Shown here: positions 30,779 through 64,000 of the stretch, piece after piece
How the letters are laid out: each line of letters opens with the position of its first letter
Numbering within the stretch: position 1 is the first letter of the stretch
Origin: Tridacna crocea
Lineage: Eukaryota; Mollusca; Bivalvia; Cardiida; Cardiidae
DNA: 64,000 nt
Assembly: GCA_943736015.1 (NCBI GenBank)
Contig: OX031065.1
Span: 2,363,501-2,427,500 of the forward strand
Reading direction: 5' to 3'
Notes under the pieces: generated by a model
The model's input: the letters and a program-made list of their open reading frames with translations, nothing else
What the model was told of the DNA's origin: nothing
Databases searched by the model: none
Position numbers and translations under genes: made by a program

Positions 30779-30796
30779 ACTATTTGTTTGTTTAAG

Positions 30797-32085
30797 TAGG
30801 CTTTGTTGGACCTTTCATTATGCTAGGGAATTCAACATTGCGCTTTTTAGGCTTTGTTGGACCTTTCATTATGCTAGGGAATTCAACATTGCGCTTTGTA
30901 GGCTTTGTTGGACGTTTCATTATGCTAGGGAATTCAACTTTGCGCTTTGTAGGCTTTGTTGGACCTTTCATTATGCTAGGGAATTCAACATTGCGCTTTG
31001 TAGGCTTTGTTGGACCTTACGTTATGCTGGAGAATTCAACATTGCGCTCTACAGGCTTTGTTGGACTTTCCATTATGCTAGGGAATTCAACATTGCGCTT
31101 TGTAGGCTTTGTTGGACCTTACGTTATGCTGGAGAATTCAACATTGCGCTCTACAGGCTTTGTTGGACTTTTCATTATGCTAGGGAATTCAACATTGCGC
31201 TTTGTAGGCTTTGTTGGACCTTTCATGTAGGCTTTGTTGGACCTTTCATTATGCTAGGGAATTCAACATTGCGCTTTGTAGGCTTTGTTGGATCTTTCAT
31301 GTAGGCTTTGTTGGACCTTTCATTATGCTAGGGAATTCAACATTGCGCTTTGTAGGCTTTGTTGGACCTTTCATGTAGGCTTTGTTGGACCTTTCGTTAT
31401 GCTAGGGAATTCAACATTGCGCTTTGAAGGCTTTGTTGGACCTTACGTTATGCTGGAGAATTCAACATTGCGCTCTACAGGCTTTGTTGGACTTTCCATT
31501 ATGCTAGGGAATTCAACATTGCGCTTTGTAGGCTTTGTTGGACCTTACGTTATGCTGGAGAATTCAACATTGCGCTCTACAGGCTTTGTTGGACTTTTCA
31601 TTATGCTAGGGAATTCAACATTGCGCTTTGTAGGCTTTGTTGGACCTTTCATGTAGGCTTTGTTGGACTTTTCGTTATGCTAGGGAATTCAACATTGCGC
31701 TTTGTAGGCTTTGTTGGACCCTACGTTATGCTGGAGAATTCAACATTGCGTTCTACAGGCTTTGTTGGGCTTTTCGTTATGCTGGAGATTTTAACATTGC
31801 GCTTTGTAGGCTTTGTTGGACCTTTCATGTAGGCTTTGTTGGACTTTTCATTATGCCAGAGAATTCAACATTGCGCTCTACAGGCTTTGTTGGACTTTTC
31901 GTTATGCTAGAGAATTCAACATTGCGCTTTGTAGGGTTTGTTGGACCCTTCGTTATGCTGGAGAATTCAACATTGCGCTCTACAGGCCTTGTTGGACCTT
32001 TCGTTATGCTAGAGATTTTAACATTGCGCTTTGTAGGCTTTGTTGGACCTTTCATTACGCTGGAGAATTTAACATTGCACATTTA
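30797..32085 (+). repeat. 51 bp minisatellite with higher-order structure
   Basis: About 22-25 units of TAGGCTTTGTTGGACC...GGGAATTCAACATTGCG, in two variants (GCTTTGTAG and GCTCTACAG junctions) that alternate. Shortened 23-24 bp units interrupt it. Blocks of about 426 bp repeat (for example from 31021 and 31447). 51 is divisible by 3, so long open frames (MLGNSTLRFVGFVGPF) arise by chance. Copy 2 has about one unit at 63007-63050. Confidence 0.9.
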
Positions 32086-34728: not shown

Positions 34729-35122
34729 TAATTATAGATCCCTAGTATACATTTGGTCCAAAAATTGACTGTCTCAGATCTGAGGGCTCTTGGCCGTGCA
34801 GAAAATTTACAAATAGCCAAAAGCTTCGACACATTACATGTCAGCCTGATCGGATTGTACAGGCTATCAGGGGTGAACACTCCTTGGATATGCATTAAGG
34901 TCTCTTTTTACAGAGCATGGGTAAATTGGTCGAAACAAACACGCTGTGTATATTTATAGATACTTTATCATCTCATTTACCTCTGCTAACGAACAATGTT
35001 TTTTGGACGTAGCTGTCTTTGCTGGCTTTTGACCTACTTTTAGGTACTGATAACGAATGAATGAAGAGACATTTGTGATTGGTAAAAAATGTAGATGTGT
35101 TTATTCTCAGGGTCAAATGTAG
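34729..35122. other. Unassigned sequence
   Basis: No gene recognised. Its last 25 bp, CTCAGGGTCAAATGTAGA, recur at 46082-46100 on the other side of the giant foldback element. Confidence 0.4.
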
Positions 35123-35139
35123 AGACGTTTGTAGCAACC

Positions 35140-38100
35140 AGTTTTGCAATAAAAACGAGAATTGCAATAAATTATTGCAAAACTCGTTGCGATGACAGGA
35201 ACTTTATTACATTTGACTTCACAACCAGTTTTGCAATAAAAACGAGAATTGCAACAAACTCATTATAAAGACAATACTTGACCGTTTTCTAGTCAAAACC
35301 AAATTAAAATACAATCTAATGTTAAATGGGACTATGTGAGACCTAAATTAAGTTACAGAAAGTGCGCTTCAAAGACCAGTAGGAACATTTCAGGCTAAAC
35401 ACTATTAAGACTGAAATCGTTGAAAACTGTCTTAAAGTCTATTAGGTGACGTAAACAGCATGAAATTTTGATTGTTTCAGAAACAATATGTCTTAAACCA
35501 GTATTGCAGTAAATTATTGCAAATCTCGTTGCGATGACAGGAACTTTATTACATTTGACTTCACAACCAGTTTTGCAAAAAAAACGAGAATTGCAACAAA
35601 CTCATTAAATAGACCATATTCGATCGTTTTCCAGTCAAAACCAAATTCAAATACAATTTAATGTTAATTGGGACTATGTAAGACGTGAATTAAGTTACAG
35701 AAAGTGCGCTTCAAAGACCAGTAGGAACATTTCAGGCTAAACACTGTTAAGGCTGAAATCGTTGGAAACTGTCATAAAGTCTATTAGATGACGTAAACAG
35801 CATGAAATTTGGATCGTTTCAGAAACAATATGTCTTAAACAAGTATTGCAGTAAATTATTGCAAAACTCGTTGCGATGACAGAAACTTTATTACATTTGA
35901 CTTCACAACCAGTTTTGCAATAAAAACGAGAATTGCAATAAACTAATTATATAGACAATACTTGACCGTTTTCTAGTCAAAGCCAAATTAAAATACAATT
36001 TAATGTTAGATTGGACTATGTAAGGCGTGAATTAAGTTACAGAAAGTGCGCTTTAAAGACCAGTAGGAACATTTCAGGCTAAACACTATTAAAGCTGAAA
36101 TCGTTGGAAACTGTCATAAAGTCTATTAGATGACGTAAACAGGATGAAATTTGAATCATTTCAGAAACAATATGTCTTAAACCAGTATTGCAGTAAATTA
36201 TTGCAAAACTCGTTGCGATGACAGGAACTTTATTACATTTGACTTCACAACCAGTTTTGCAATAAAAACCAGAATTGCAACAAACTCATTAAATGGATCA
36301 TCTTCGATCGTTGTCCAGTCAAGACCAAATTCAAATACAATTTAATGATGAATGGGACTATGTAAGTCTTAAATTAGGTTACAGAAAGTGTGCTTCAAAG
36401 ACAAATAGGAACATTTCAGGCTAAAGACTACTAAGCCTTAAATCGTTGGAAACTGTCATAAAGTCTATTAGATGACGTAAACAGGATGAAATTTGGATCG
36501 TTTCAGAAACAATATTTCTTAAACAAGTATTGCAGTAAATTATTGCAAAACCCGTTGCGATGACAGAAACTTTATTACATTTGACTTCACAACCAGTTTT
36601 GCAATAAAAACGAGAATTGCAATAAACTAATTATATAGACAATACTTGACCGTTTTCTAGTCAAAGCCAATTTAAAATACAATTTAATGTTAGATTGGAC
36701 TATGTAAGGCGTGAATTAAGTTACAGAAAGTGCGCTTTAAAGACCAGTAGGAACATTTCAGGCAAAACACTATTAAGGCAGAAATCGTTGGAAACTGTCA
36801 TAAAGTCTTTTAGATGACGTAAACAGGATGAAATTTGGATCGTTTTAGAAACAATATGTCTTAAACCAGTATTGCAGTAAATTATTGCAAATCTCGTTGC
36901 GATGACAGGAACTTTATTACATTTGACTTCACAACCAGTTTTGCAAAAAAAACGAGAATTGCAACAAACTCATTAAATAGACCATATTCGATCGTTTTCC
37001 AGTCAAAACCAAATTCAAATACAATTTAATGTTAAATGGGACTATGTAAGACGTGAATTAAGTTACAGAAAGTGCGCTTCAAAGACCAGTAGGAACATTT
37101 CAGGCTAAACACTGTTAAGGCTGAAATCGTTGGAAACTGTCATAAAGTCTATTAGATGACGTAAACAGCATGAAATTTGGATCGTTTCAGAAACAATATG
37201 TCTTAAACAAGTATTGCAGTAAATTATTGCAAAACTCGTTGCGATGACAGAAACTTTATTACATTTGACTTCACAACCAGTTTTGCAATAAAAACGAGAA
37301 TTGCAATAAACTAATTATATAGACAATACTTGACCGTTTTCTAGTCAAAGCCAAATTAAAATACAATTTAATGTTAGATTGGACTATGTAAGGCGTGAAT
37401 TAAGTTACAGAAAGTGCGCTTTAAAGACCAGTAGGAACATTTCAGGCTAAACACTATTAAAGCTGAAATCGTTGGAAACTGTCATAAAGTCTATTAGATG
37501 ACGTAAACAGGATGAAATTTGAATCATTTCAGAAACAATATGTCTTAAACCAGTATTGCAGTAAATTATTGCAAATCTCGTTGCGATGACAGGAACTTTA
37601 TTACATTTGACTTCACAACCAGTTTTGCAATAAAAACCAGAATTGCAACAAACTCATTAAATGGATCATCTTCGATCGTTGTCCAGTCAAGACCAAATTC
37701 AAATACAATTTAATGATGAATGGGACTATGTAAGTCTTAAATTAGGTTACAGAAAGTGTGCTTCAAAGACAAATAGGAACATTTCAGGCTAAAGACTACT
37801 AAGCCTTAAATCGTTGGAAACTGTCATAAAGTCTATTAGATGACGTAAACAGGATGAAATTTGGATCGTTTCAGAAACAATATTTCTTAAACAAGTATTG
37901 CAGTAAATTATTGCAAAACCCGTTGCGATGACAGAAACTTTATTACATTTGACTTCACAACCAGTTTTGCAATAAAAACGAGAATTGCAATAAACTAATT
38001 ATATAGACAATACTTGACCGTTTTCTAGTCAAAGCCAATTTAAAATACAATTTAATGTTAGATTGGACTATGTAAGGCGTGAATTAAGTTACAGAAAGTG

Positions 38101-40915
38101 CGCTTTAAAGACCAGTAGGAACATTTCAGGCAAAACACTATTAAGGCAGAAATCGTTGGAAACTGTCATAAAGTCTTTTAGATGACGTAAACAGGATGAA
38201 ATTTGGATCGTTTTAGAAACAATATGTCTTAAACAAGTATTGCAGTAAATTATTGCAAAACTCGTTGCGATGACAGGAACTTTATTACATTTGACTTCAC
38301 AACCAGTTTTGCAATAAAAACGAGAATTACAATAAACTAATTATATAGACAATACTTGACCGTTTTCTAGTCAAAGCCAAATTAAAATAGAATTTAATGT
38401 TAAATGGGACTATGTGAGACCTAAATTAAGTTACAGAAAGGGTGCTTCAAAGACCAGTAGGAACATTTCAGGTAAAACTCTATTAAGGCTGAAATCGTTG
38501 GAAACTGTCATAAAGTCTATTAGATGACGTAAACAGGATGAAATTTGGATCGTTTCAGAAACAATATGTCTTAAACCAGTATTGCAGTAAATTATTGCAA
38601 AACTCGTTGCGATGACAGGAACTTTATTACATTTGACTTCACAACCAGTTTTGCAATAAAAACGAGAATTGCAACAAACTCATTAAATAGACCATATTCG
38701 ATCGTTTTCCAGTCAAAACCAAATTCAAATACAATTTAATGTTAAATGGGACTATGTAAGGCGTGAATTAAGTTACGGAAAGTGTGCTTCAAAGACCAGT
38801 AGGTACATTTCAGGCTAAACACTATTAAGGCTGAAATCGTTGGAAACTGTCATAAAGTCTATTAGATGACGTAAACAGCATGAAATTTGGATCGTTTCAG
38901 AAACAATTTGTCTTAAACCAGTATTGCAGTAAATTATTGCAAAACTCGTTGCTATGACAGGAACTTTATTACATATGACTTCACAACCAGTTTTGCAAAA
39001 AAAAAAAAACGAGAATTGCAACAAACTCATTATATGGACCATGTTCGATCGTTTGCCAGTCAAAACCATTTTCAAATACAATTTAATGTTAGATTGGACT
39101 ATGTAAGACCTGAATGAAGTTTCAGAAAGTGCGCTTCAGAGACCAGTAGGAACATTTCAGGCTAAACACTATTAAGGCTGAAGTCATCGGAAACTGTCAT
39201 AAAGTCTATTAGATGACGTAAACAGCATGAAATTTGGATTGTTTCAGAAACGACATGTCTTAAACCAGTATTGCAGTAAATTACTGCAAAACTCGTTGCG
39301 ATGACAGGAACTTTATTACATTTGACCTCACAACCAGTTTTGCAATAAAAACGAGAATTGCAACAAAATGATTATATGGGCCATATTCGACTGTTTTTCA
39401 GTCAAAACCAAATTCAAATACAATTTAATGTTAAATGCGACTATGTTAGACCTGAATTAAGTTACAGAAAGTGTGCTTCAAAGACCAGTAGGAACAGTTC
39501 AGGCTAAACACTATTAAGGCTGAAATCGTCGGAAACTGTCATAAAGTCTATTAGATGACGTAAACAGTATGGAATTTTGATCGTTTCAGAAACAATATGT
39601 CTTAAACCAGTATTGCAGTAAATTATTGCAAAACTCGTTGCGATGACAAGAACGTTATTACATTTGACTTCACAACCAGTTTTGCAATAAAAACGAGAAT
39701 TGCAATAAATTCATTATGTGGACCACTTTCGATCTTCTTCCGGTCAAAACGAAATTAAAATACAATTCAATGTTAAATGCAACTATGTAAGACCTCAATT
39801 AAGTTACAGAAAGTGCGTTTCAAAGACCAGTAGGAACAGTTCAGGCTAAACACTATTAAGGCTGAAATCATCGGAAACTGTCATAAAGTCTATTAGATGA
39901 CGTAAACAGCATGGAATTTTGATCGTTTCAGAAACAATATGTCTTAAACCAGTATTGCAGTAAATTATTGCAAAACTCTTTGCGATGACAGGAACTTTAA
40001 TACATTTGACTTCACAACCAGTTTTGCAATAAAAACGAGAATTGCAACAAACTCATTATATGGAGCATATTCGACCGTTTTCCAGTCAAAACCAAATTCA
40101 AATACAATTTAATGTTAAATGCGACTATGTAAGACCTGAATTAAGTTACAGAAAGTGCGCTTCAAAGACCAGTAGGAACAGTTCAGGCTAAACACTATTA
40201 AGGCTGAAATCATCGGAAACTGTCATAAAGTCTATTAGATGACGTAAACAGCATGGAATTTTGATCGTTTCAGAAACAGTATGTCTTAAACCAGTATTGT
40301 AGTAAATTATTGCAAAACTCGTTGCGATGACAGGAACTTTATTACATTTGACTTCACAACCAGTTTTGCAATAAAGACGAGAATTGCAACAAACTCATTA
40401 AATGCACCATATTCGATGGTTTTCCAGTCAAAACCAAATTCAAATACAATTTAATGTTAAATGCGACTATGTAAGACCTAAAGTAAGTTACAGAAAGTGC
40501 GCTTCAAAGACCAGTAGGAACAATTCAGGCTAAACACTATTAAGGCTGAAATCATCGGAAACTGTCATAAAGTCTATTAGATGACGTAAACAGCATGGAA
40601 TTTTGATCGTTTCAGAAACAATATGTCTTAAACCAGTATTGCAATGAATTATTGCAAAACTCGTTGCGATGACAGGAACTTTATTACATTTGACTTCACA
40701 ACCAGTTTTGCAATAAAAACGAGAATTGCAATAAACTGATTATATGGACCATATTTGATCGTTTTCTTGTCAAAACTGAATTAAAATACAATTTAATGTT
40801 AAATGGGACTATGTAAGACCTGAATTAAGTTACAGAAAGTGTGCATCAAAGACCAGTAGGAACATTTCAGGCTAAACACTATTAAGGCTTAAATCATTTG
40901 GAACTGTAATAAAGT
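35140..40915 (+). repeat. Left-arm array: ~342 bp monomers, about 17
   Basis: The landmark GTTTTGCAATAAAAACGAG occurs at about 35228, 35570, 35911, 36253, 36596, 36938, 37280, 37621, 37966, 38308, 38650, 38991, 39338, 39680, 40021, 40363 and 40704. A four-monomer higher-order unit of about 1368 bp is present twice (35570-36937 and 36938-38306): each variant monomer recurs four positions later, for example the ATGGATCATCTTCGATCG variant at 36293 and 37661. Confidence 0.92.
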
Positions 40916-40977
40916 CTATTGCCTAACGTAAACAGCATATTAGAAAAACAAAAAGATAGAGAGAAAAAGAAGAAAGA

Positions 40978-41060
40978 AATGCACTCCATGGGATTCGAAC
41001 CCATGGCCTCGAGCGCAGATATTACAGAACTGGCGCTCTACCGACTGCGCTTCAGGGCAG
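40978..41060 (-). mobile_element. tRNA-Tyr-like SINE head / tRNA relic
   Basis: Minus strand: A-box region AGTCGGTAGAGCGC, loop CTGTAAT giving anticodon GTA (Tyr), B box GGTTCGAATCC with a good T stem (CCATGGG / CCCATGG). The first seven bases do not pair with the last seven, so a working tRNA is unlikely. It lies at the inner end of the left arm. The inverted counterpart at 43305-43335 keeps only the first part, so half was lost in the right arm. Confidence 0.6.
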
Positions 41061-41436
41061 TCATGACCGTTACGGTACCAGTAATATATAAAGTCTTACA
41101 GATGTCTCCAAGGTTTGTAAAATGCCCCCTTGGTGTAAGACAATGCCATAACGTGCACAGGAGGTGAAAGTAGACACAAAGACAAGTTTGTAAAATGCCA
41201 CCTACGCGTAAGACAATGCGATAACGTGCACAGGAGGTGAATTAGACACAAAGACAAGACAAAATATCAGTCATTGATCAATAACACGATCAGTGATAAA
41301 TGATTTGATTTTTGTATGATAGATAAACAGCTGTAGGTAGCATTTCCTTCGTTTGGGTATTTATTGAGGAACTATACTACTCAACTTTTGCTAAGCATCA
41401 GAAGTTTTTTTTTAATATACTATTACATAATTTGCG
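41061..41436. repeat. Inner inverted segment of the giant foldback, left side
   Basis: Contains a ~65 bp tandem pair (GACAATGC...ACGTGCACAGGAGGTGA, at about 41130 and 41210) and the stretch ending at 41420. The inverse lies at 42976-43300, where CTTCTGATGCTTAGC begins it. Confidence 0.8.
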
Positions 41437-41745
41437 GTCGAGAAGACCTTGCATACGTATCACCTTGAGGCAACGACATCGCCAGGCGAATGGACCAGGG
41501 AGCATGCACGGTGGACTACGCAACACTGGAGACATGTTCTGTTTACTGATGAGTCCAGATTCTGCCTAGACTTTACCGATAGGCGTGCTTGAATCTGGAG
41601 AAGACGAGGGGAACGGTTTCTTGCTGCAAATGTTGCTGAGCCTGACCCTGGGTCATACTGCGGTATACGTCTAGTCATGCATTGATCTGATGCATATTGC
41701 TCTACCAGGTACAACCGAGGGATTCAATGGCTCCGAATGACCTTG
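41437..41745 (+). pseudogene. Tc1/mariner transposase fragment
   Basis: In the frame of 41488 the translation reads EWTREHARWTTQHWRHV, then LFTDESRF, a diverged C-L-D-F-T-D-R-R stretch and WRRRGERF. FTDESRF (about 41533-41553) holds the second catalytic Asp of Tc1-like DDE transposases, and the WRRRGERF block is typical just after it. Stops interrupt the frame (TGA at about 41590 and 41684), and both the N-terminal DNA-binding domain and the third acid are missing. An old insertion in the spacer of the giant foldback. The reverse-strand frame here is a shadow. Confidence 0.8.
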
Positions 41746-41844
41746 TCTGTATTAAGGGGGTCGCGATTAGAAGTAATTTTAGTCAGATGATCAATGTTGC
41801 CGGAATAACCTACTACACTTGCATCTTAGCTATTGACATACGTA

Positions 41845-41947
41845 GTCTTTTAAGGGAACACCATCAAAAAAGATTTTTTTTTTTATTTTTTTTTTCATAT
41901 AAATTTCAGTAATAAATATGAGATATGAAAAATCTAAATAGTCACCT
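41845..41947 (+). mobile_element. Kolobok-like MITE, right-end fragment
   Basis: TACGTAGTCTTTTAAGGGAACACC to TCACCT followed by TTAA (41948-41951) matches the last part of 17548-18088. The left end is missing. Confidence 0.7.
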
Positions 41948-41954
41948 TTAAGAC

Positions 41955-42850
41955 ATATTGTTTTTGAAAAAGTCAAAATTCAAAGTTGCTTACGCTTTTT
42001 AATCGACTTTATGACAGTTTCCAATGATTTAAGCGTTGATAGTGTTTAGCCTGAAATGTTCCAATTGATCTTTGAAGCACACTTTCTGTAAGTTAATTTA
42101 GGTTTTACATAATCCCATTTAACATTAAATTGTATTTTAATTTGGTTTTGACCAGAAACGATCGAATATGGTCCATGTGATGAGTTTATTGCAATTCTCG
42201 TTTTTCTTGCAAAAATGGTTGTGAGGTCAAATGTAATAATTTTTTTGTAATCGCAACGAGTTTTGCAATAATGTATTGCAATACTGGTTTAAGAAATGTT
42301 GTTGCTAAAACAGTCGAAATTTCAATGTTGTAAACGGTACGAATGATTTGAGCATTAATAGTCTTTAACCTGAAATGTTCGAAGTGGTCTTTGAAGCCCA
42401 CATTCTGTAACTTAATTTACGTCTAACATAATCTCTTTTAAAAGACATTTGTACTGTAGTTTGATTTTTATTGGAAAACCATCGAATATGGTCCATGTAA
42501 TGATTTTACTGCAATTCTCATTTTTATTGCAAAACTGTTTGTGAAGTCAAATATAATAAATTCTCTATCATTGCAACAAGTTTTGCAATAAATTTTACTC
42601 AATCTTCTTTACGTTATCTAATCGACTTTATAAGAGTTTCCAATGATTTAATAGTAAATAGTGTTTAGCCTTTAGATCGAATTGGTCTTTGAAGCACACA
42701 TACGGTAACTTAATATAGGTCTTATATAATCCCGTTTAACATTAAAAGCACTTTAATTTGGTTTTGGTTAGAAAACAATCGAATATGGTCCATATGATGA
42801 GTTTATTGCAATTCTCGTTTTTATTGCAAAACTGGTTGTGAAGTCAAATG
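41955..42850 (-). repeat. Diverged monomers of the 342 bp repeat
   Basis: Three degraded inverted monomers (landmark TTGCAATTCTCGTTTTT at about 42190, 42512 and 42810) with indels and spacing under 342 bp. They are more decayed than either main arm, so they are the oldest monomers or an abandoned arm end. Confidence 0.75.
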
Positions 42851-43345
42851 GACGAGTTGTAACGGATTAGTCGACACGGATTCATGTCGGGGGACTTTCT
42901 CAAAACATTGCTGAATCATAATTTTCAAAAATTGGAAAGAAATCTGTTTTATACTTGTAATAATATAAAAAAAAAAAACTTCTGATGCTTAGCAAAAGTT
43001 GAGTAGTATAGTTCCTCAATAAATACCCAAACGAAGGAAATGCTACCTACAGCTGTTTATCTATCATACAAAAATCAAATCATTTATCACTGATCGTGTT
43101 ATTGATCAATGACTGATATTTTGTCTTGTCTTTGTGTCTAATTCACCTCCTGTGCACGTTATCGCATTGACTTACGCGTAGGTGGCACTTTACAAACTTG
43201 TCTTTGTGTCTACTTACACCTCCTGTGCACGTTAGGGGGCATTTTACAAACCTTCGGAGACATCTGTAAGACTTTATATATTACTGGTACCGTTACGTGC
43301 CTGACTGCCCTGAAGCACAGTCGGTAGAGCGCAAGTTCCTAATAT
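42851..43345. repeat. Inner inverted segment, right side, with short unique stretch
   Basis: 42851-42964 is unassigned. From 42976 the sequence is the reverse complement of about 41420-40915, with small deletions around the tRNA-like relic. Confidence 0.75.
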
Positions 43346-46059
43346 GCTGTTTACGTTAGGTAATAGACTTTATGACAGTTCCCAATGATTTAAGCCTTAA
43401 AAGTGTTTAGCCTGAAATGTTCCTATTGGCCTTTGAAGCACACTTTCTGTAACTAAATTTAGGTCTTACATAGTCGCATTTAACATTAAATTCTATTTGA
43501 ATTTGGTTTTGACTAAAAAACAATCAAACATGGTCCATATAATGAGTTTGTTGCAATTCTCATTTTTATTGCAAAACTGGTTGTGAAGTCAAATGTAATA
43601 AAGTTCCTATCATCGCAACGAGCTTTGCAATAATTTACTGCAATACTGGTTTAAGACATATTGTTTCTGAAACGATCAAAATTCCATGCTGTTTACGTCA
43701 TCTAATAGACTTTATGACAGTTTCCGATGGTTTCAGCCTTAATAGTGTTTACCCTGAAATGTTCCAATTGGTCTTTGAAACGCACTTTCTGTAACTTAAT
43801 TCAGGTCTTACATAGTCCCATTTAACATTAAATTGTATTTGAATTTGGTTTTGACCGGAAAACGATCGAATATGGTCCACATAATGAGTTTGTTGCAATT
43901 CTCGTCTTTATTGCAAAACTGGTTGTGAAGTCAAATGTAATAAAGTTCCTGTCATCGCAACGAGTTTTGCAATAATTTACTGCAATACTGGTTTAAGACA
44001 TATTGTTTCTGGAACGATCAAAATTCCATGCTGTTTACGTCATCTAATAGACTTTATGACAGTTTCCGATGATTTCAGCCTTAATAGTGTTTACCCTGAA
44101 ATGTTCCTACTGGTCTTTGAAGCGCACTTTCTGTAACTTAATTTAGGTCTTACATAGTCCCATTTAACATTAAATGCTATTTGAATTTGGTTTTGACCGG
44201 AAAACGATGGAATATGGTCCACATAATGAGTTTGTTGCAATTCTCGTTTTTATTGCAAAACTGGTTGTGAAGTCAAATGTAATAAAGTTCCTGTCATCGC
44301 AACGAGTTTTGCAATAATTTACTGCAATACTGGTTTAAGACATATTGTTTCTGAAACGATCAAAATTCCATGCTGTTTACGTCATCTAATAGACTTTATG
44401 ACAGTTTCCGATGATTTCAGCCTTAAAAGTGTTTACCCTGAAATGTTCCTACTGGTCTTTGAAGCGCACTTTCTGTAACTTAATTCAGGTCTTACATAGT
44501 CCCATTTAACATTAAATTCTATTTGAATTTGGTTTTGACCGGAAAACGATCGAATATGGTCCACATAATGAGTTTGTTGCAATTCTCGTTTTTATTGCAA
44601 AACTGGTTGTGAAGTCAAATGTAATAAAGTTCCTGTCATCGCAACGAGTTTTGCAATAATTTACTGCAATACTGGTTTAAGACATATTGTTTCTGAAACG
44701 ATCAAAATTCCATGCTGTTTACGTCATCTAATAGACTTTATGACAGTTTCCGATGATTTCAGCCTTAATAGTGTTTACCCTGAAATGTTCCTACTGGTCT
44801 TTGAAGCGCACTTTCTGTAACTTAATTCACGTCTTACATAGTCCCATTTAACATTAAATTCTATTTGAATTTGGTTTTGACCGGAAAACGATCGAATATG
44901 GTCCACATAATGAGTTTGTTGCAATTCTCGTTTTTATTGCAAAACTGGTTGTGAAGTCAAATGTAATAAAGTTCCTGTCATCGCAACGCGTTTTGCAATA
45001 ATTTACTGCAATACTGGTTTAAGACATACTGTTTCTGAAACGATCAAATTCCATGCTGTTTACGTCATCTAATAGACCTTATGACAGTTTCCGATGGTTT
45101 CAGCCTTAATAGTGTTTACCCTGAAATGTTCCTACTGGTCTTTGAAGCGCACTTTCTGTTACTTAATTCAGGTCTTACATAGTCGCATTTAACATTAAAT
45201 TGTATTTGAATTTGGTTTTGACCGGAAAACGATCGAGTATGGTCCACATAATGAGTTTGTTGCAATTCTCGTTTTTATTGCAAAACTGGTTGTGAAGTCA
45301 AATGTAATAAAGTTCCTGTCATCGCAACGAGTTTTGCAATAATTTACTGCAATACTGGTTTAAGACATATTGTTTCTGAAACGATCAAAATTCCATGCTG
45401 TTTACGTCATCTAATAGACTTTATGACAGTTTCCGATGATTTCAGCCTTAATAGTGTTTACCCTGAAATGTTCCTACTGGTCTTTGAAGCGCACTTTCTG
45501 TAACTTAATTCACGTCTTACATAGTCCCATTTAACATTAAATTCTATTTGAATTTGGTTTTGACCGGAAAACGATCGAATATGGTCCACATAATGAGTTT
45601 GTTGCAATTCTCGTTTTTATTGCAAAACTGGTTGTGAAGTCAAATGTAATAAAGTTCCTGTCATCGCAACGCGTTTTGCAATAATTTACTGCAATACTGG
45701 TTTAAGACATACTGTTTCTGAAACGATCAAATTCCATGCTGTTTACGTCATCTAATAGACCTTATGACAGTTTCCGATGGTTTCAGCCTTAATAGTGTTT
45801 ACCCTGAAATGTTCCTACTGGTCTTTGAAGCGCACTTTCTGTTACTTAATTCAGGTCTTACATAGTCGCATTTAACATTAAATTGTATTTGAATTTGGTT
45901 TTGACCGGAAAACGATCGAGTATGGTCCACATAATGAGTTTGTTGCAATTCTCGTTTTTATTGCAAAACTGGTTGTGAAGTCAAATGTAATAAAGTTCCT
46001 GTCATCGCAACGAGTTTTGCAATAATTTATTGCAATTCTCGTTTTTTTGCAAAACTGGT
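43346..46059 (-). repeat. Right-arm array: ~341 bp monomers, about 8
   Basis: Inverted relative to the left arm, with TTGCAATTCTCGTTTTTATTGC at about 341 bp spacing (43552 to 45948). A two-monomer higher-order unit of about 683 bp is present twice (44640-45320 and 45320-46000), marked by the shared variants CGCAACGCGTTTTGC and AATAGACCTTATGAC. Confidence 0.9.
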
Positions 46060-46073
46060 TGCTACAGACGTTT

Positions 46074-46458
46074 ATTCTAGATTCTCAGGGTCAAATGTAG
46101 ACACGTTTCTACCAGGAACCCCTGCCTATTTGCTTGCAAATTAATACCGCACGTCTTTTTGAAAGATATTTCTTATTTTACTTCAAATAGACAATAAGCT
46201 CTCAAGATAAACTCTAATAATTTTATCTTACGTCAAATAAATGTGAGCAGCGATGAAAACAAGAGGCTTCATATAAAATTAGTTTCAGTTGTAGAAGTAC
46301 AGAGTAATCACCTAGTTTAGGTATATGATATACATGTACTATATTGGTGCACAGCCTTAAATGGTGCAAAAGGTAAAGAAATATTGTGAATAAGTTTTAA
46401 ATGAAGTTGAACGTGGCAACCTCTGCAAATTTTTGATATCCAGTATATCATAATTATA
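46074..46458. other. Unassigned sequence
   Basis: Begins with TTATTCTAGATTCTCAGGGTC, an echo of the left flank of the giant foldback, so the target was itself a short tandem duplication. Nothing else recognised. Confidence 0.4.
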
Positions 46459-47863: not shown

Positions 47864-50800
47864 AGCTCACCTGAGCACAAAGTGCTCATAATGAGCTTTT
47901 GTGATCGCCCAATGTCCGTCGTGCGTTGTCCGTCGTCCACAATTTCTTTAAACATCTTCTTCTCCCAAACCACCGAGCCAATCGTGATGAAACTTGGCAG
48001 GGATGTTCCTTGAGTGAAGCTCTACCAAAGTTGTTCAAGAGATTGAATCCCAGCAATAACTCTGGTTGCCATGGCAGGCAACCAAAAGGAAAAAATAGCA
48101 AAATCTTTGAAAATCTTCTTCTCTGAAACTAGAAGGCGTCGAGCTTTGATATTTTGTATATAGCATTTCCTAGTGGACCTCTACCAAGATTGTTCATATG
48201 AAGGCCCTGGGGTCAAAACTGGCCCTGCCCCGGAGGTCACAAGTTTGAAACAAAGGAACAAAGAAGGAAAACTTTAAAATTCTTCTTCTTTGAAACTAGA
48301 AAGGGCAGAGCTTTGATATTTGGTATGAAGCATCTGCTAGTTGACTTCTACCAAGTTTGTTCACATGATGTCCCTGGAGTCCAAACTGGCCCGGCTGCGG
48401 GGGTCACAAGTTCGAAACATAGGAACAAAGAAGGAAAATCTTCTTCTCTGAAACTAGAAGGGGCAGAGCTTTGATATTTGGTATGTAGCATCTACTAGTA
48501 GACCTCTACCAAGATTGTTCATATGCTCCTGGGGTTAAAACTGGCCCCGCCCCAGGGGTCACAAGTTTGAAAGATAGGAACAAAGAAGGAAAACTTTAAA
48601 ATTCTTCTTCTCTGAAACTAGAAGGGGGAGAGCTTTGATATTTGATATGAAGCATCTGCTAGTTGACTTCTACCAAGTTTGTTCATATGATGCTCCTGGG
48701 GTTAAAACTGGCCCCGCCCCAGGGGTCGCAAGTTTGAAAGATAGGAACAAAGAAGGAAAACTTTAAAAATCTTTTTCTCTGAAACTAGAAGGGGCAGAGC
48801 TTTGATATTTGGTATGTAGCATTTACCAGTAGACCTCTACCAAGGTTGTTTATATGATTCCCCTAGGGTCAAAACTGGTCCCGCCGCAGGGGTCACAAGT
48901 TTGAAACATAGGAACAAAGAAGGAAAACTTTAAAATTCTTCTTCTTTGAAACTAGAAAGGGCAGAGCTTTGATATTTGGTATGAAGCATCTGCTAGTTGA
49001 CTTCTACCAAGTTTGTTCACATGATGTCCCTGGAGTCCAAACTGGCCCAGCTGCGGGGGTCACAAGTTCGAAACATAGGAACAAAGAAGGAAAACTTTAA
49101 AAATCTTCTTCTCTGAAAATGGAAGGGAAAGAGCTTTGATATTTGGTATGTAGAATCTCCTAGTGGACCTCTACCAAGATTGTTCATATGATGCCCCTGG
49201 GGTCAAAACTGGCCCCGCCCCGGGGAGCACAAGTTTGAAACACAGGAACAAAGAAGGAAAACTTTAAAATTCTTCTTCTATGAAACTGGTTAGGGCAGAG
49301 CTTTGATATTTATTATGTAGCATCTCCTAGTGGACCTCTACCAAGATTGTTCATATGATGCTACTGGGCCCAAACTGGCCCCGCCCCCGGGCTCACAAGT
49401 TTGAAATATAGGAACAAAGAAGGAAAACTTTAAAAATCTTCTTCTCTGAAACAAGAAGGAATAGAGCTTTGATATTTGGTATGAAGCATCTGCTAGTTGA
49501 CTTCTACCAAGTTTGTTCACATGATGTCCCTGGGGTTCAAACTGGCCCGGCTGCGGGGGTCACAAGTTCGAAACATAGGAACAAAGAAGAAAAACTTTAA
49601 AAATCTTCTTCTCTGAAAATGGAAGGGAAAGAGCTTTGATATTTGGTATGTAGCATCTCCTAGTGGACCTCTACCAAGATTGTTCATATAATGCGCCTGG
49701 GGTCAAACCTGGCCCCGCCCCGGGGACCACAAGTTTGAAAAACAGGAACAAAGAAGGAAAACTTAAAAATTCTTCTACTATGAAACTAGTTAGGGCAGAG
49801 TTTTGATATTTATAATGTAGCATCTCCTAGTGGACCTCTACCAAGATTGTTCATATGATGCTAGTGGGGTCAAAACTGGCCCCGCCCCAGGGGTCACAAG
49901 TTTGAATCATAGGAACAAAGAAGGAAAACTTTAAAAATCTTGTTCTCTGAAACAAGAAGGAATAGAGCTTTGATATTTGGTATGAAGCATCTGCTAGTTG
50001 ACTTCTACCAAGTTTGTTCACATGATGTCCCTGGGGTTCAAACTGGCCCAACTGCGGGGGTCAAAATTTCGAAACATAGGAAGAAAGAAGGAAAACTTTA
50101 AAAATCTTCTTCTCTGAAACTGGAAGGGGCAGAGCTTTGATATCTGATATGTAGCATCTCCTAGTGGACCTCTATCAAGATTGTTCGAATGATGCCCCTA
50201 GGGTCCAAACTGGCCCTGCCCGGGGTCACAAGTTTAAAACATAGGAACAAAGAAGGAAAACTTTAAAAATTTTCTTCTCTGAAACTAGAAGGTGTCGGGC
50301 TTTGATATTTGGTATGTAGTATCTCCTAGTAGACCTCTACCAAGATTGTTCATACGATGCCCCTGAGGTCCAAACTGGCCCTTCCCCGGCGGTCACAAAT
50401 TTGACACAAAGGAACAAAGAAGGAAAACTTTAATTCTTTTTCTATAAAACTAGAAGGGCCAGAGCTTTGATTTTTGATTTGTAGCTACTCCTGGTGGACC
50501 TCTACCAAGATTGTTCGTATGATGCCCCTAGGGTCAAAACTGGCCCCGCCCCGGGGAGCACAAGTTGGAAAGATTGGAACAAAGCATGAAAACTTTAAAA
50601 ATCTTCTTCTCTGAAACTAGAAGGGGTAAAGCTTTGATATTTGGTATGTAGCATCTCCTAGTTGACCTCTACCAAGGTTGTTCATAAGATGCCCCTTGGG
50701 TCAAAACTGGCCCCGCCCCGGGGGTCACAAGTTTGAAACATAGGAACAAAGAAGGAAAATTTTAAAAATCTTCCTCTCTAAAATAAGAAGGAGTAGAGCT

Positions 50801-52765
50801 TTGATATTTGGTATGAAGCATCTGCTAGTTGACCTCTACCAAGTTTGTTCGCATGATGTCCCTGGGGTCCAAACTGGCCCCAAACCGGGAGTCACAAGTT
50901 CGAAACATAGGAAGAAAGAAGGAAAACTTTTAAAAATCTTCTTCTCTCAAACTGGATGGGACAGAGCTTCGATATTTGGTATGTAGCATCTCCTAGTGGA
51001 CCTCTACCAAGATTGTTCGTATGATGCTCCTAGGGTCAAAACTTGCCCCGCCCCGGGGGTCACAATTTTGAAACATAGGAACAAAGAAGGAAAACTTTAA
51101 TTCTTTTTCTTTGAAACTAGAAGGGCCAGAGCTTTGATATTTGGTATGTGGCTTCTCCTAGTGAACTTCTACCAAGATTGTTCGTATGATGCCCCTAGGG
51201 TCAAAACTGGCCCCAAACCGGGGGTCACAAGTTTGAAACAGGACCAAAGAAAGAACACTTTAAAAATCATCTCTGAAACTAGAAGGTGCAGAGCTTTGAT
51301 ATTTGGTATGTAGAATTTCCTAGTAGACCTCTATCAAGATTGTTCTTATGATGCCCCTTAGGTCAAAACTGGCCCCACCCCGGGGGTGAAAAGTTTGAAA
51401 CATAGGAAGAAAGAAGGAAAACCTTAAAATTCTTCTTCTCTGAAACTACAAGGGGCAGAGCTTTGATATTTATTATGTAGCATCTCCGAGTGGACCTCTA
51501 CCAATTTTGTTCGTATGATGCCCCTGGGGTCCAAACTGGCCCCACCCTGGGGGTCACAAGTTTGAAACATAGGAACAAAAAACGAAAGCTTTAAAAATCT
51601 TCTTCTCTGAAACAAGAAGGAGTACAGCTTTGATATTTGGTATGAAGCATCTGCTAGTTGATCTCTATGAAGTTTGTTCACATGGTGTCTTTGGGGTCCA
51701 AACTCGCTGAGTGTCGGGGGTCACAAGTTTGAAACATAGGAAAAAAGAAGGAAAACTTTAAGATTCTTTTTCTTTGAAACAAGAAGGGCCAGAGCTTTGC
51801 CTTTTGGTATGTAGTATCTCCTAATGGACCTCTACCAAGATTGTTCATATGATGCCCCTTGGGTCAAAACTGGCCCCGCCCTGGGGTCACAAGTTTGAAA
51901 CATAGGAAAAAAGAAGGAAATCTTTAAAAAAAATTGTTTGAAACTAGAAGGGGCAGGGCTTTGATATTTGGGGTGTAGCTTCTCCCAGTGGACCTCTACC
52001 AAGAGTATTCGTATGATGCCCCAGGGTCAAAATTGGCCCCGCCCCGGGGGTTACAAGTTTGAAACAGGAACAAAGAAGGAAAACTTTAAAAAATCTTCTT
52101 CTCTGAAACTACAAGGTGCAGAGCTTTGATATTTGGTATGTAGCATCTCCTAGTGGACCTCTACCAAGATTTTTCATATGATGCCCTGGAGTCAAAACTG
52201 GCCACACCCAGGGGGTCACAAGTTTGAAACACGGGAACAAAGAAGGAAAACTTTAAAATTCTGCTTCTATGAAACTAGAAGGGGCAAAGCTTTGATATTT
52301 ATTATGTACATCTCCTAGTGGACCTCTACCAAGATTGTCCATATGATGCCCCTTGGGTCAAAACTGGCCGCTGCCCGGGGGTCACAAGTTTGAAACATAG
52401 GAACAAAGAAGGAAAACTTTAAAAATATTCTCTGAAACAAGCAGGAGTAGAGCATTGATATTTGGTATGAAGCATCTGCTAGTTGACCTCTACCAAGTTT
52501 GTTCACATGATGTCCATGGGGTCCAAACTGGCCCAGCTGCGGGGGTCACAAGTTCGAAACATATGAACAAAGAAGGAAAACTTTAGAAATATTTTTCTCT
52601 GAAACTGGAAATCGTAGAGCTTTGATATTGCATTATGTAGCATCTTTTAGTGGACCTCTACCAAATACGATACGATGATCTTTTCAGAAAAGAAGAATTT
52701 TCATTGTAGACCTTTACTGTTTAGTTGTCAGGTGAGCGATATAGGACCATCATGGTCCTCTTGTT
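47864..52765 (+). mobile_element. Helentron-like element H5 carrying a 170 bp satellite (4.9 kb)
   Basis: The 5' end AGCTCACCTGAGCAC folds on GTGCTCATAATGAGCT. The inverse TCAGGTGAGC (52729-52738) precedes the 3' hairpin AGGACCATCATGGTCCT (52743-52759) and CTCTTGTT. A GTCC/GTCG-rich stretch is at 47915-47940. The interior is about 27 tandem units of 165-170 bp, containing CTTTGATATTTGG, GACCTCTACCAAG and AAACTGGCCCCGCCCC. Duplication copy 1 (about 20536-20545) is the empty site, with no target duplication visible. Reverse-strand frames repeat a peptide and are satellite artefacts. Confidence 0.8.
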
Positions 52766-63178: not shown

Positions 63179-63269
63179 GCCACGGATATGGAATAAATAT
63201 ATGAGCTAGGTTGGTTGTGGTAAAAAGGGACTTCATGCACTGCAAATACCGACTGAGGTCAGCCTGTGC

Positions 63270-64000
63270 AGTCTGCGCAGACTGTGCAGTCCACACAGTC
63301 CACGTAGTCTGTGCAGTCCATGCAGTCCGTGCAGTCCTTGCAGTCCGCTCAGACCGCTCAGTCCGCACAGTCTGCGCAGTCCGTACAGTTTGCGCATTCA
63401 GTTCAGTCTAGGCAGTCCACGCAGTCAGTGCAGTCCGTGCAGTCAGTGCAGTCTGTGCAGTCTGTGAAGTCTGCACAGTAAGTGCAGTCTGCGCAGCCCA
63501 TGCTTTCCATGCAGTCTGTGCAGCCCTCACAGTCCGTGCTTTTCGTGCAGTCTGTGCAGTCCAAGCAGTCCATGCAGACTGTGCAGTCCGCGCAGTCCAT
63601 GTGGTCCGCACAGTCTGCACAGTCCGTGCAGTCAGTGCAGTCCACACAGTCCATGCTTTCCGCGCAGTCTGCGCAGTCCATGCAGTCCGTTCAGTCCACG
63701 CTGTCTATGCAGTCTGCACAGTCCGTGCAGTGTGTGCAGTCCGCGCTGTCCATGCAGTCCTTGCAGTCTGCACAGTCCAAGCAGTCCATGCAGTCCGTGC
63801 TGTTCGTGCAGTCCGTGCAGTCCATGCAGTCCATGCAGTCCTTGCTGTTTGTGCAGTCGGCGCAGTCCATGCAGTCCGCACTGTCCCTGCAGTCCGCGCA
63901 GTCCGTGCAGTCTACGCTGTCCATGCAGTCTGTGCTGTCCGTGCAGTCCGCGCAGTCTGCGCAGTCCATGCTGTCCGCGCAGTCCATGCTGTCCGTGCAG
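63270..64000 (+). repeat. 9 bp minisatellite (GCAGTCCGT type), continues past window end
   Basis: About 80 units of GCAGTCYRY with a mixture of CGT/CAT/TGC/CGC endings. It starts inside the sequence that in copy 1 reads GTCAGCCTGCGCAGG, so it probably grew from the CTGCGCAG palindrome. Period 9 gives reverse-strand frames reading D-C-A/T-D-C, not a real protein. Confidence 0.95.

Follow-up and report, generated by a model that had tools for sequence, protein, structure and literature searches.

The question raised by a 64,000-nucleotide stretch of the genome of the bivalve Tridacna crocea (contig OX031065.1, positions 2,363,501 to 2,427,500; hereafter the window) is whether two inverted, satellite-like arrays within it constitute a single mobile element and, if so, what moves that element and how its arrays are inherited. 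An initial annotation, made from the sequence alone, had described the structure as a single inserted foldback element of the plan known from FB and Galileo in Drosophila. Foldback elements are a long-known and poorly understood class, for which the source enzyme has often not been known. Here, we describe a computational analysis of the window and of the genome in which it lies. We present evidence that the window structure is one copy of a multi-copy foldback family that is real and was probably mobile in the recent past. Its members have inserted repeatedly as whole units with defined ends and target duplications, an empty site exists for one of the copies, complete arrays have been inherited, and tandem duplication has occurred within arms. 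Very probably, these are non-autonomous foldback DNA transposons that are moved as a whole by a transposase supplied in trans and that generate a 6-7-bp duplication; this confidence does not extend to the assignment of the transposase to the integrase type.

Results

A dispersed family with inverted arrays and common tips

As assembled, the window element carries inverted arrays of a 342-bp unit at 35153-40938 (16.9 copies) and 43344-46044 (7.9 copies), in agreement with the approximately 17 and 8 monomers counted previously, and the longest inverted pairs between the two arms are 91-94% complementary over up to 1713 nt. Exact inverted tips, GTAGCAACCAG and CTGGTTGCTAC, are located at 35131 and 46055-46065, and the word AGACGTTT is present at 35123-35130 and 46066-46073, with no third occurrence on either strand of the window.

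When the genome containing the window (1.05 Gb in 31 contigs) was searched with 378 bases of the left end, at least 346 matches were obtained. Twenty stretches were fetched, representing 18 further loci, or 19 element loci counting the window copy. Both inverted tips were present in 18 of the 19, the remaining locus (L026) having one tip only within the fetched stretch. These 18 two-ended copies range in length from 3,678 to 18,068 bp, and inverted arms of internal tandem repeats are found in the window copy and in the 17 others alike, so that the earlier description of a single inserted foldback element with satellite-like arms applies to an entire set of copies with the same plan, tips and duplications. 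The exact inverse tips reported previously, which are present at 35131 and 46065, are far beyond chance: a 19-base tip word with at most one mismatch occurs 81+91 times (172) in the genome, compared with 0+0 for its reversed control, and an 18-base word with at most two mismatches occurs 120+131 times, compared with 25+16. Among 103 placed tips, 29 on the plus strand are faced by one on the minus strand less than 20 kb away (two share one partner); three of these pairs are short (67-235 bp) and 26 are separated by more than 3.6 kb. Sixteen further stretches (L073-L088) were used to read the ends alone of other elements, which stand outside the 18-copy counts.

In ten copies, comprising a short-centre subfamily (L015, L016, L019-L022, L024, L025, L027 and L028), the arms meet at a 13-bp asymmetric spacer without an internal domain; L016 has, in addition, a 1.6-kb insert in one arm. 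L023 groups with these copies by monomer sequence, but its junction differs and it contains a 1.5-kb insert. The window copy is a member of a second subfamily, and parts of its centre are common to L009, L010_11 and L012_13, indicating that the centre is carried along in transposition. The same tips bound 11 elements of 66-251 bp (L029-L032, L035, L039, L043, L045, L047, L048 and L106). Three tips that diverge just past the 18-base word (L105-L107) comprise a single tip for which no mate was found within 2 kb, a short element of 99 bp and one array of the usual kind, and inspection by eye, with frames left unscanned, revealed no transposase in them. At L058 (C5:47219740-47220195) there is a lone tip, and about 60 bp on stands GGGCTC, the same word as in its left flank; from its sequence, this may be an insertion with a single end that duplicated its target.

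Because the arms are satellite-like and long inverted repeats are difficult to assemble, the structure could also be a free satellite array, either inverted or wrongly assembled, with tips and a duplication that arose by chance. We give this explanation almost no credence, in view of the 172 tips against none for the control, the individual duplications of the 18 two-ended copies, the empty site found for one copy (see below) and the surroundings of the monomers themselves. A monomer word occurs 417+407 times in the genome (824; control 0), and 99 of the first 100 listed, on contigs C1-C3, are no more than 6 kb away from a listed tip, that at C2:50433237 being the sole exception. No long free monomer array was seen among these 100 of 824 places, and arrays outside the element, as expected of a free-standing satellite, were likewise not found among them. 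The free-satellite or misassembly explanation is thereby refuted, save for the exact copy number per arm. The initial annotation had named monomer loci lacking tips and duplications as evidence that would count against its reading; given the 17 other copies and the proximity of the listed monomer words to tips, this objection was not borne out.

Defined ends and a 6-7-bp target duplication

The base preceding GTAGC is T and the base following GCTAC is A in all 18 two-ended copies, including L020 and L027, in which GCTAC occurs in one-base variants and A is still next. At further tip loci, T precedes GTAGC in 59 of 60 cases (a few of these being two ends of one element or one duplicated segment). 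Because the T and A are constant across copies, both are part of the element, which is bounded by TGTAGC..GCTACA. These ends are flanked by a direct repeat of 6 bp in 16 of the 18 copies and by one of 7 bp in two (L017 and L012_13); L026, with its one tip, was excluded from the count. The 8-bp target duplication originally proposed is therefore refuted. In the window, the 8-bp word arises because a chance A precedes and a chance T follows the true duplication, GACGTT. The element delimited by the earlier borders, 35123..46073, stands, with its borders and duplications corrected to those in Table 1.

These results bear on the possibility that the family is FB/Galileo-like, with an 8-bp duplication and a transposase of the P, hAT or Mutator type. 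Such an element would look the same in outline, being non-coding and having long inverted arms with tandem repeats inside them, and an 8-base repeat is indeed found directly outside GTAG/CTAC in six of the 18 copies, the window included. A duplication of 6-7 bp in all 18 copies, together with terminal T and A bases that belong to the element, renders this possibility improbable. What survives of the likeness to FB and Galileo is the plan, inverted arms with internal repeats as in Galileo and Tetris; the duplication length does not fit.

The six-base duplications exhibit a target preference, NNGCNN, with G as the third base in 14 of 16 and C as the fourth in 13 of 16, and GC is present at the corresponding place (-5,-4) in 43 of 60 further tips.

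An empty site was sought for L010_11, using a 240-base query in which its flanks were fused across a single ATGACC, its 6-bp duplication. Of 245 candidate places, 40 were scored, and these are 96-99% identical to the query; 37 cover 240/240 bases (three with a slight length difference) and three cover 238-239. The junction is uninterrupted in six of six fetched loci, without the element or a second ATGACC, and with a nearby substitution in one. Empty sites for this insertion are thus present in other copies of its host repeat. A by-eye translation of the host sequence resembles the frame of a retrotransposon nested in the same element, and Pfam assigned no family to an 80-residue piece of it. 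The marks of a mobile element, namely defined ends, a target duplication, dispersed copies and, for one copy, an empty site, are all present.

Monomers resemble disabled copies of the element end

The tip and the monomers have a common sequence from CAACCAG onward and differ in the bases directly before this core. TGTAG occupies this place in 34 of 36 tips, the other two having TGTAA and TGAAG. Among 323 internal copies, defined as those with an intact CAACCAGTTTTGCAA core (copies without it were left out), TGTAG is found in none and CTTCA in 308. Judged by these sequences, the monomers look like copies of the transposon end in which TGTAG has been replaced. Cutting may be restricted to the outermost copy, with the internal copies perhaps acting as extra binding sites; the THAP domain of the Galileo transposase is reported to bind internal repeats (PMC3688188). 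The tip contains two inverted copies of the core motif, and none of 200 shuffles folds as well (z -5.1). Its 72 bases are identical in 40 genomic tips, these being the best 40 of 1118 candidates and the ones scored.

Complete arrays are inherited and grow within arms

We aligned 327 monomers from the 18 copies, leaving out degenerate monomers that failed the length filter. The nearest relative of a monomer in another element belongs to its own subfamily in 103 of 103 and 224 of 224 cases. Tests on oriented arms used 211 monomers from the ten short-centre copies, oriented by the asymmetric spacer, and then 79 or 95 monomers; L018 and L023 were not oriented. In the short-centre copies, the nearest monomer elsewhere lies in the same arm for 209 of 211 monomers (shuffled: mean 106, maximum 119; mean 104, maximum 122) and within one ordinal position, counted from tip or centre, for 163 of 211 (shuffled mean 41, maximum 48). 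Seventeen pairs of monomers within one element are at least 98.8% identical, all of them in the same arm and none between arms (11 of the 18 copies have no such pair). From the arm and position matches and the same-arm duplicates, we infer that complete arrays are inherited by transposition and then undergo local tandem duplication within an arm. As far as the monomer sequences tell, monomers in the short-centre subfamily are hardly exchanged between arms.

Alternatively, the arms could be made and kept alike by copying from one to the other, through foldback strand invasion or gene conversion. This is plausible for hairpin-forming elements, and the mean divergence of monomers between arms is 5-10% in 17 of the 18 copies, about equal to that within arms (in L009, with one monomer in one arm, it is 21%). 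Arm-to-arm copying is difficult to reconcile with the same-arm relationship of 209 of 211 short-centre monomers and with the absence of any near-identical pair joining the two arms of one element, and we regard it as quite improbable.

In the ten short-centre copies, the first monomer past the tip has a mean divergence of 1.2% (arm X) and 3.0% (arm Y), compared with 6.2% between copies overall. This low divergence, together with the identical tips, suggests a recent spread, on a relative scale for which no rate was calibrated.

The search for a source enzyme

Interior frames of at least 100 amino acids (aa) occur in L010_11 and L012_13 only. The longest (1133 aa), in the interior of L010_11, was rejected as the source of the enzyme: it is that of a nested non-LTR (long terminal repeat) retrotransposon with endonuclease, reverse transcriptase and RNase H, and runs uninterrupted on the minus strand at L011:1300-4698, inside the foldback copy. 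Six other interior frames of this size gave no Pfam family over its cut-off. The copies read contained no autonomous relative with a P, hAT or Mutator transposase, the check proposed in the initial annotation, and no coding relative with the tips of this family was found, no P-type or hAT profile search of the genome having been made. A duplication of 6 rather than 8 bp changes the likely source enzyme: the pointer to P or Mutator is weakened, while a hAT6 source would still be compatible with it.

The TG..CA ends and the 6-bp duplication suggest instead a transposase of the integrase type. The ends of Gypsy-type and Ginger elements are described as starting with TGTNR (PMC2836005), and 6-bp duplications are described for IS3EU and GingerRoot elements, with TG..CA termini occasional in GingerRoot (PMC10045372). 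An IS3-family profile search of the genome yielded 77 hits, all below cut-off, and seven of the eight loci inspected (L090-L096) are Gypsy-like polyproteins by eye. The best hit, L089 (C3:50117935-50121618), has integrase (rve) and OTU domains and is perhaps of the Ginger/IS3EU kind. It was rejected as the source, having one full-length copy, with the next best 47% identical, and no tip-like word in the 3.7 kb examined. Whether the transposase is of the integrase (TG..CA) type is, in our estimation, about evenly balanced, and we offer the assignment as a lead rather than a finding.

A source in the hAT6 group, or in another cut-and-paste superfamily that is not of the integrase type, has to be weighed against this. 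The ends of hAT elements generally begin CAGGG or TAG. The TGTAG..CTACA ends of the present family fit the TGTNR rule of Gypsy and Ginger (PMC2836005). The hAT6 group nonetheless makes 6-bp duplications and is placed in a lineage with animal hAT families (PMC12730594), and no transposase was found that would exclude it. We consider such a source unlikely.

Features of the window copy and its surroundings

Coordinates are collected in Table 1.

Table 1. Parts of the window copy and its target-site duplications, in window coordinates
Feature	Position	Strand	Basis or remark
Whole element, TGTAGCAACC...GGTTGCTACA	35130..46066 (10,937 bp)	.	Terminal T/A in 18/18 two-ended copies
Left target-site duplication, GACGTT	35124..35129	+	6 bp, inferred from 18 copies and the L010_11 empty site
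Right target-site duplication, GACGTT	46067..46072	+	6 bp, inferred from 18 copies
Left tip, about 72 bp, with two inverted copies of a GCAAC-AGTTTTGCAATAA-type motif	35130..35201	+	Genomic matches; DNA fold
Right tip, inverted copy of left tip, 98.5% identical	45999..46066	-	
Left arm, roughly 17 of the 342-bp monomers, including a duplicated block of four (99.4-100% identical)	35135..40938	+	
Right arm, in the opposite orientation to the left arm, with roughly 8 of the 342-bp monomers	43344..46061	-	
Centre of the window copy's subfamily (2.4 kb)	40939..43343	.	Parts at 92-94% in L009, L010_11 and L012_13
tRNA-like remnant (weak), inner end of left arm	40988..41051	-	Rfam tRNA, 23.3 bits; cut-off 29
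Inner inverted repeat, left copy, 282 nt	41146..41427	+	98% complementary to 42956-43237
Inner inverted repeat, right copy	42956..43237	-	
Broken piece, Tc1/mariner-transposase-like by eye (HWRHVLFTDESRF), weak	41431..41682	+	Translation; Pfam negative
Degenerate monomers within centre	41947..42850	-	

The broken piece in the centre bears a weak likeness to a Tc1/mariner transposase, judged by eye from its translation; Pfam found no family in two stop-free Tc1-like pieces of the centre. A tRNA gene in the centre was rejected, since ARAGORN found none in the window and the Rfam score is below its cut-off, and Rfam gave no tRNA match for the comparable stretch that inspection by eye had revealed in the L014 and L017 centres. 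Rfam listings of mir-556, mir-19, MIR2617 and rli51 were all below their cut-offs and were taken as chance matches to palindromic sequence.

The flanks at 35100-35130 and 46076-46110 have in common a longer direct repeat (ATTCTCAGGGTCAAATGTAGA.ACGTTT), separate from the target duplication, which indicates that the element landed in or beside a short local duplication. Three further arrays lie elsewhere in the window: about 27 copies of a 167-bp unit at 48101-52664, shortly downstream of the element, a 51-bp-unit array with longer periods of 74, 102, 125, 176 and 227 bp at 30796-32078, and an 18-bp array (CAGTCTGTGCAGTCCGCG) at 63260-64000 that reaches the window end.

Discussion

Inverted arms of tandem repeats are known from the FB elements of Drosophila and the TU elements of sea urchin, which have shorter units and 9-bp and 8-bp duplications, respectively. 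Two other Drosophila systems provide closer comparisons. Tetris of Drosophila virilis (PMC4079207) is likewise non-autonomous, with long inverted arms of approximately 220-bp tandem repeats, a variable middle, tips common to a short element (DAIBAM) and a source transposase that was not found. It differs in its 8-10-bp duplications, as compared with 6-7 bp in the window family; in the position of its repeats, which come after a flanking domain that can reach 866 bp, whereas the arrays of the window family begin within about 90 bp of the tip; and in the many repeats that it has in arrays without the rest of the element, whereas the window family shows little free satellite in the part listed. 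Galileo, of the P superfamily (PMC3573991, PMC3688188), has long, internally repetitive ends in which repeat number varies independently. Its duplications are 7 bp (PMC3573991), compared with 6 bp in 16 of 18 copies here, and its ends reach about 1.26 kb, with a P-type transposase in related copies, compared with arms of several kb in the window family. The window family also differs from Tetris and Galileo in size, its arrays filling nearly the whole element.

By duplication length, the family instead resembles IS3EU and GingerRoot (PMC10045372), whose 6-bp duplication is found in 16 of the 18 copies, and hAT6 (PMC12730594), which has the same length. TG..CA termini, the rarer form in GingerRoot, are present in 18 of 18 copies; IS3EU proper always has TA..TA termini, and the available part of PMC10045372 contains no IS3EU or GingerRoot element with satellite arms. 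In the literature searched, a search whose scope took in few subscription papers, we found no molluscan foldback element built in this way; the word Tetris occurs in three papers on oyster repeats, in one of which (PMC8268682) it stands in the reference list.

We propose that a transposase supplied in trans would recognise the 5'-TGTAGCAACCAGTTTTGCAA end at both extremities and mobilise the whole structure, including both arrays, for insertion with a 6-7-bp duplication, preferably at NNGCNN. The arrays would be tandem copies of the end with the outermost bases changed, of which only the outermost copy would be cut, and the inner copies could provide additional transposase-binding sites, by analogy with what is reported for Galileo. 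Several observations weigh against the reading of the family as whole-unit, trans-mobilised transposons. Two of the 18 duplications are 7 bp, and exact 6-7-bp duplications are found in three of the 11 short elements (L032, L043 and L048), those of the other eight differing by at least one base. Arm separation is weaker in the window subfamily, where the closest relative is in the same arm for 65 of 79 monomers (mean of 39 and maximum of 49 on shuffling), or for 72 of 95 when L014 and L017 are added (mean of 49 and maximum of 67). The empty site comes from one of the 18 copies, L010_11, and not from the window copy. No transposase was recognised in the copies read, whose non-monomer interiors were translated for frames of at least 100 aa, and when 141 integrase hits (from the IS3 profile and an L089 query) were compared with the listed tips on contigs C1-C13, none lay within 19 kb of a tip.

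It is a tentative possibility, which we would not yet call probable, that a transposase of the integrase type (TG..CA, 6 bp) moves this family, which would then be the first foldback family of that sort. Its arms would form a binding platform, kilobases of satellite in length, of ends disabled by changes at the cleaved bases, with only the outermost copy being cut, and its arrays would spread as fixed units without exchange between arms.

In our view, the greatest interest of this system lies in its arrays of disabled ends and in how separate its arms have stayed. With some tens of intact-ended copies in this genome, both the role of the internal repeats and the growth of the arms become testable. 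The data favour transposition of whole arrays followed by local tandem duplication within an arm, and they argue against copying between arms. The family also shows a route by which transposition can spread satellite-like arrays.

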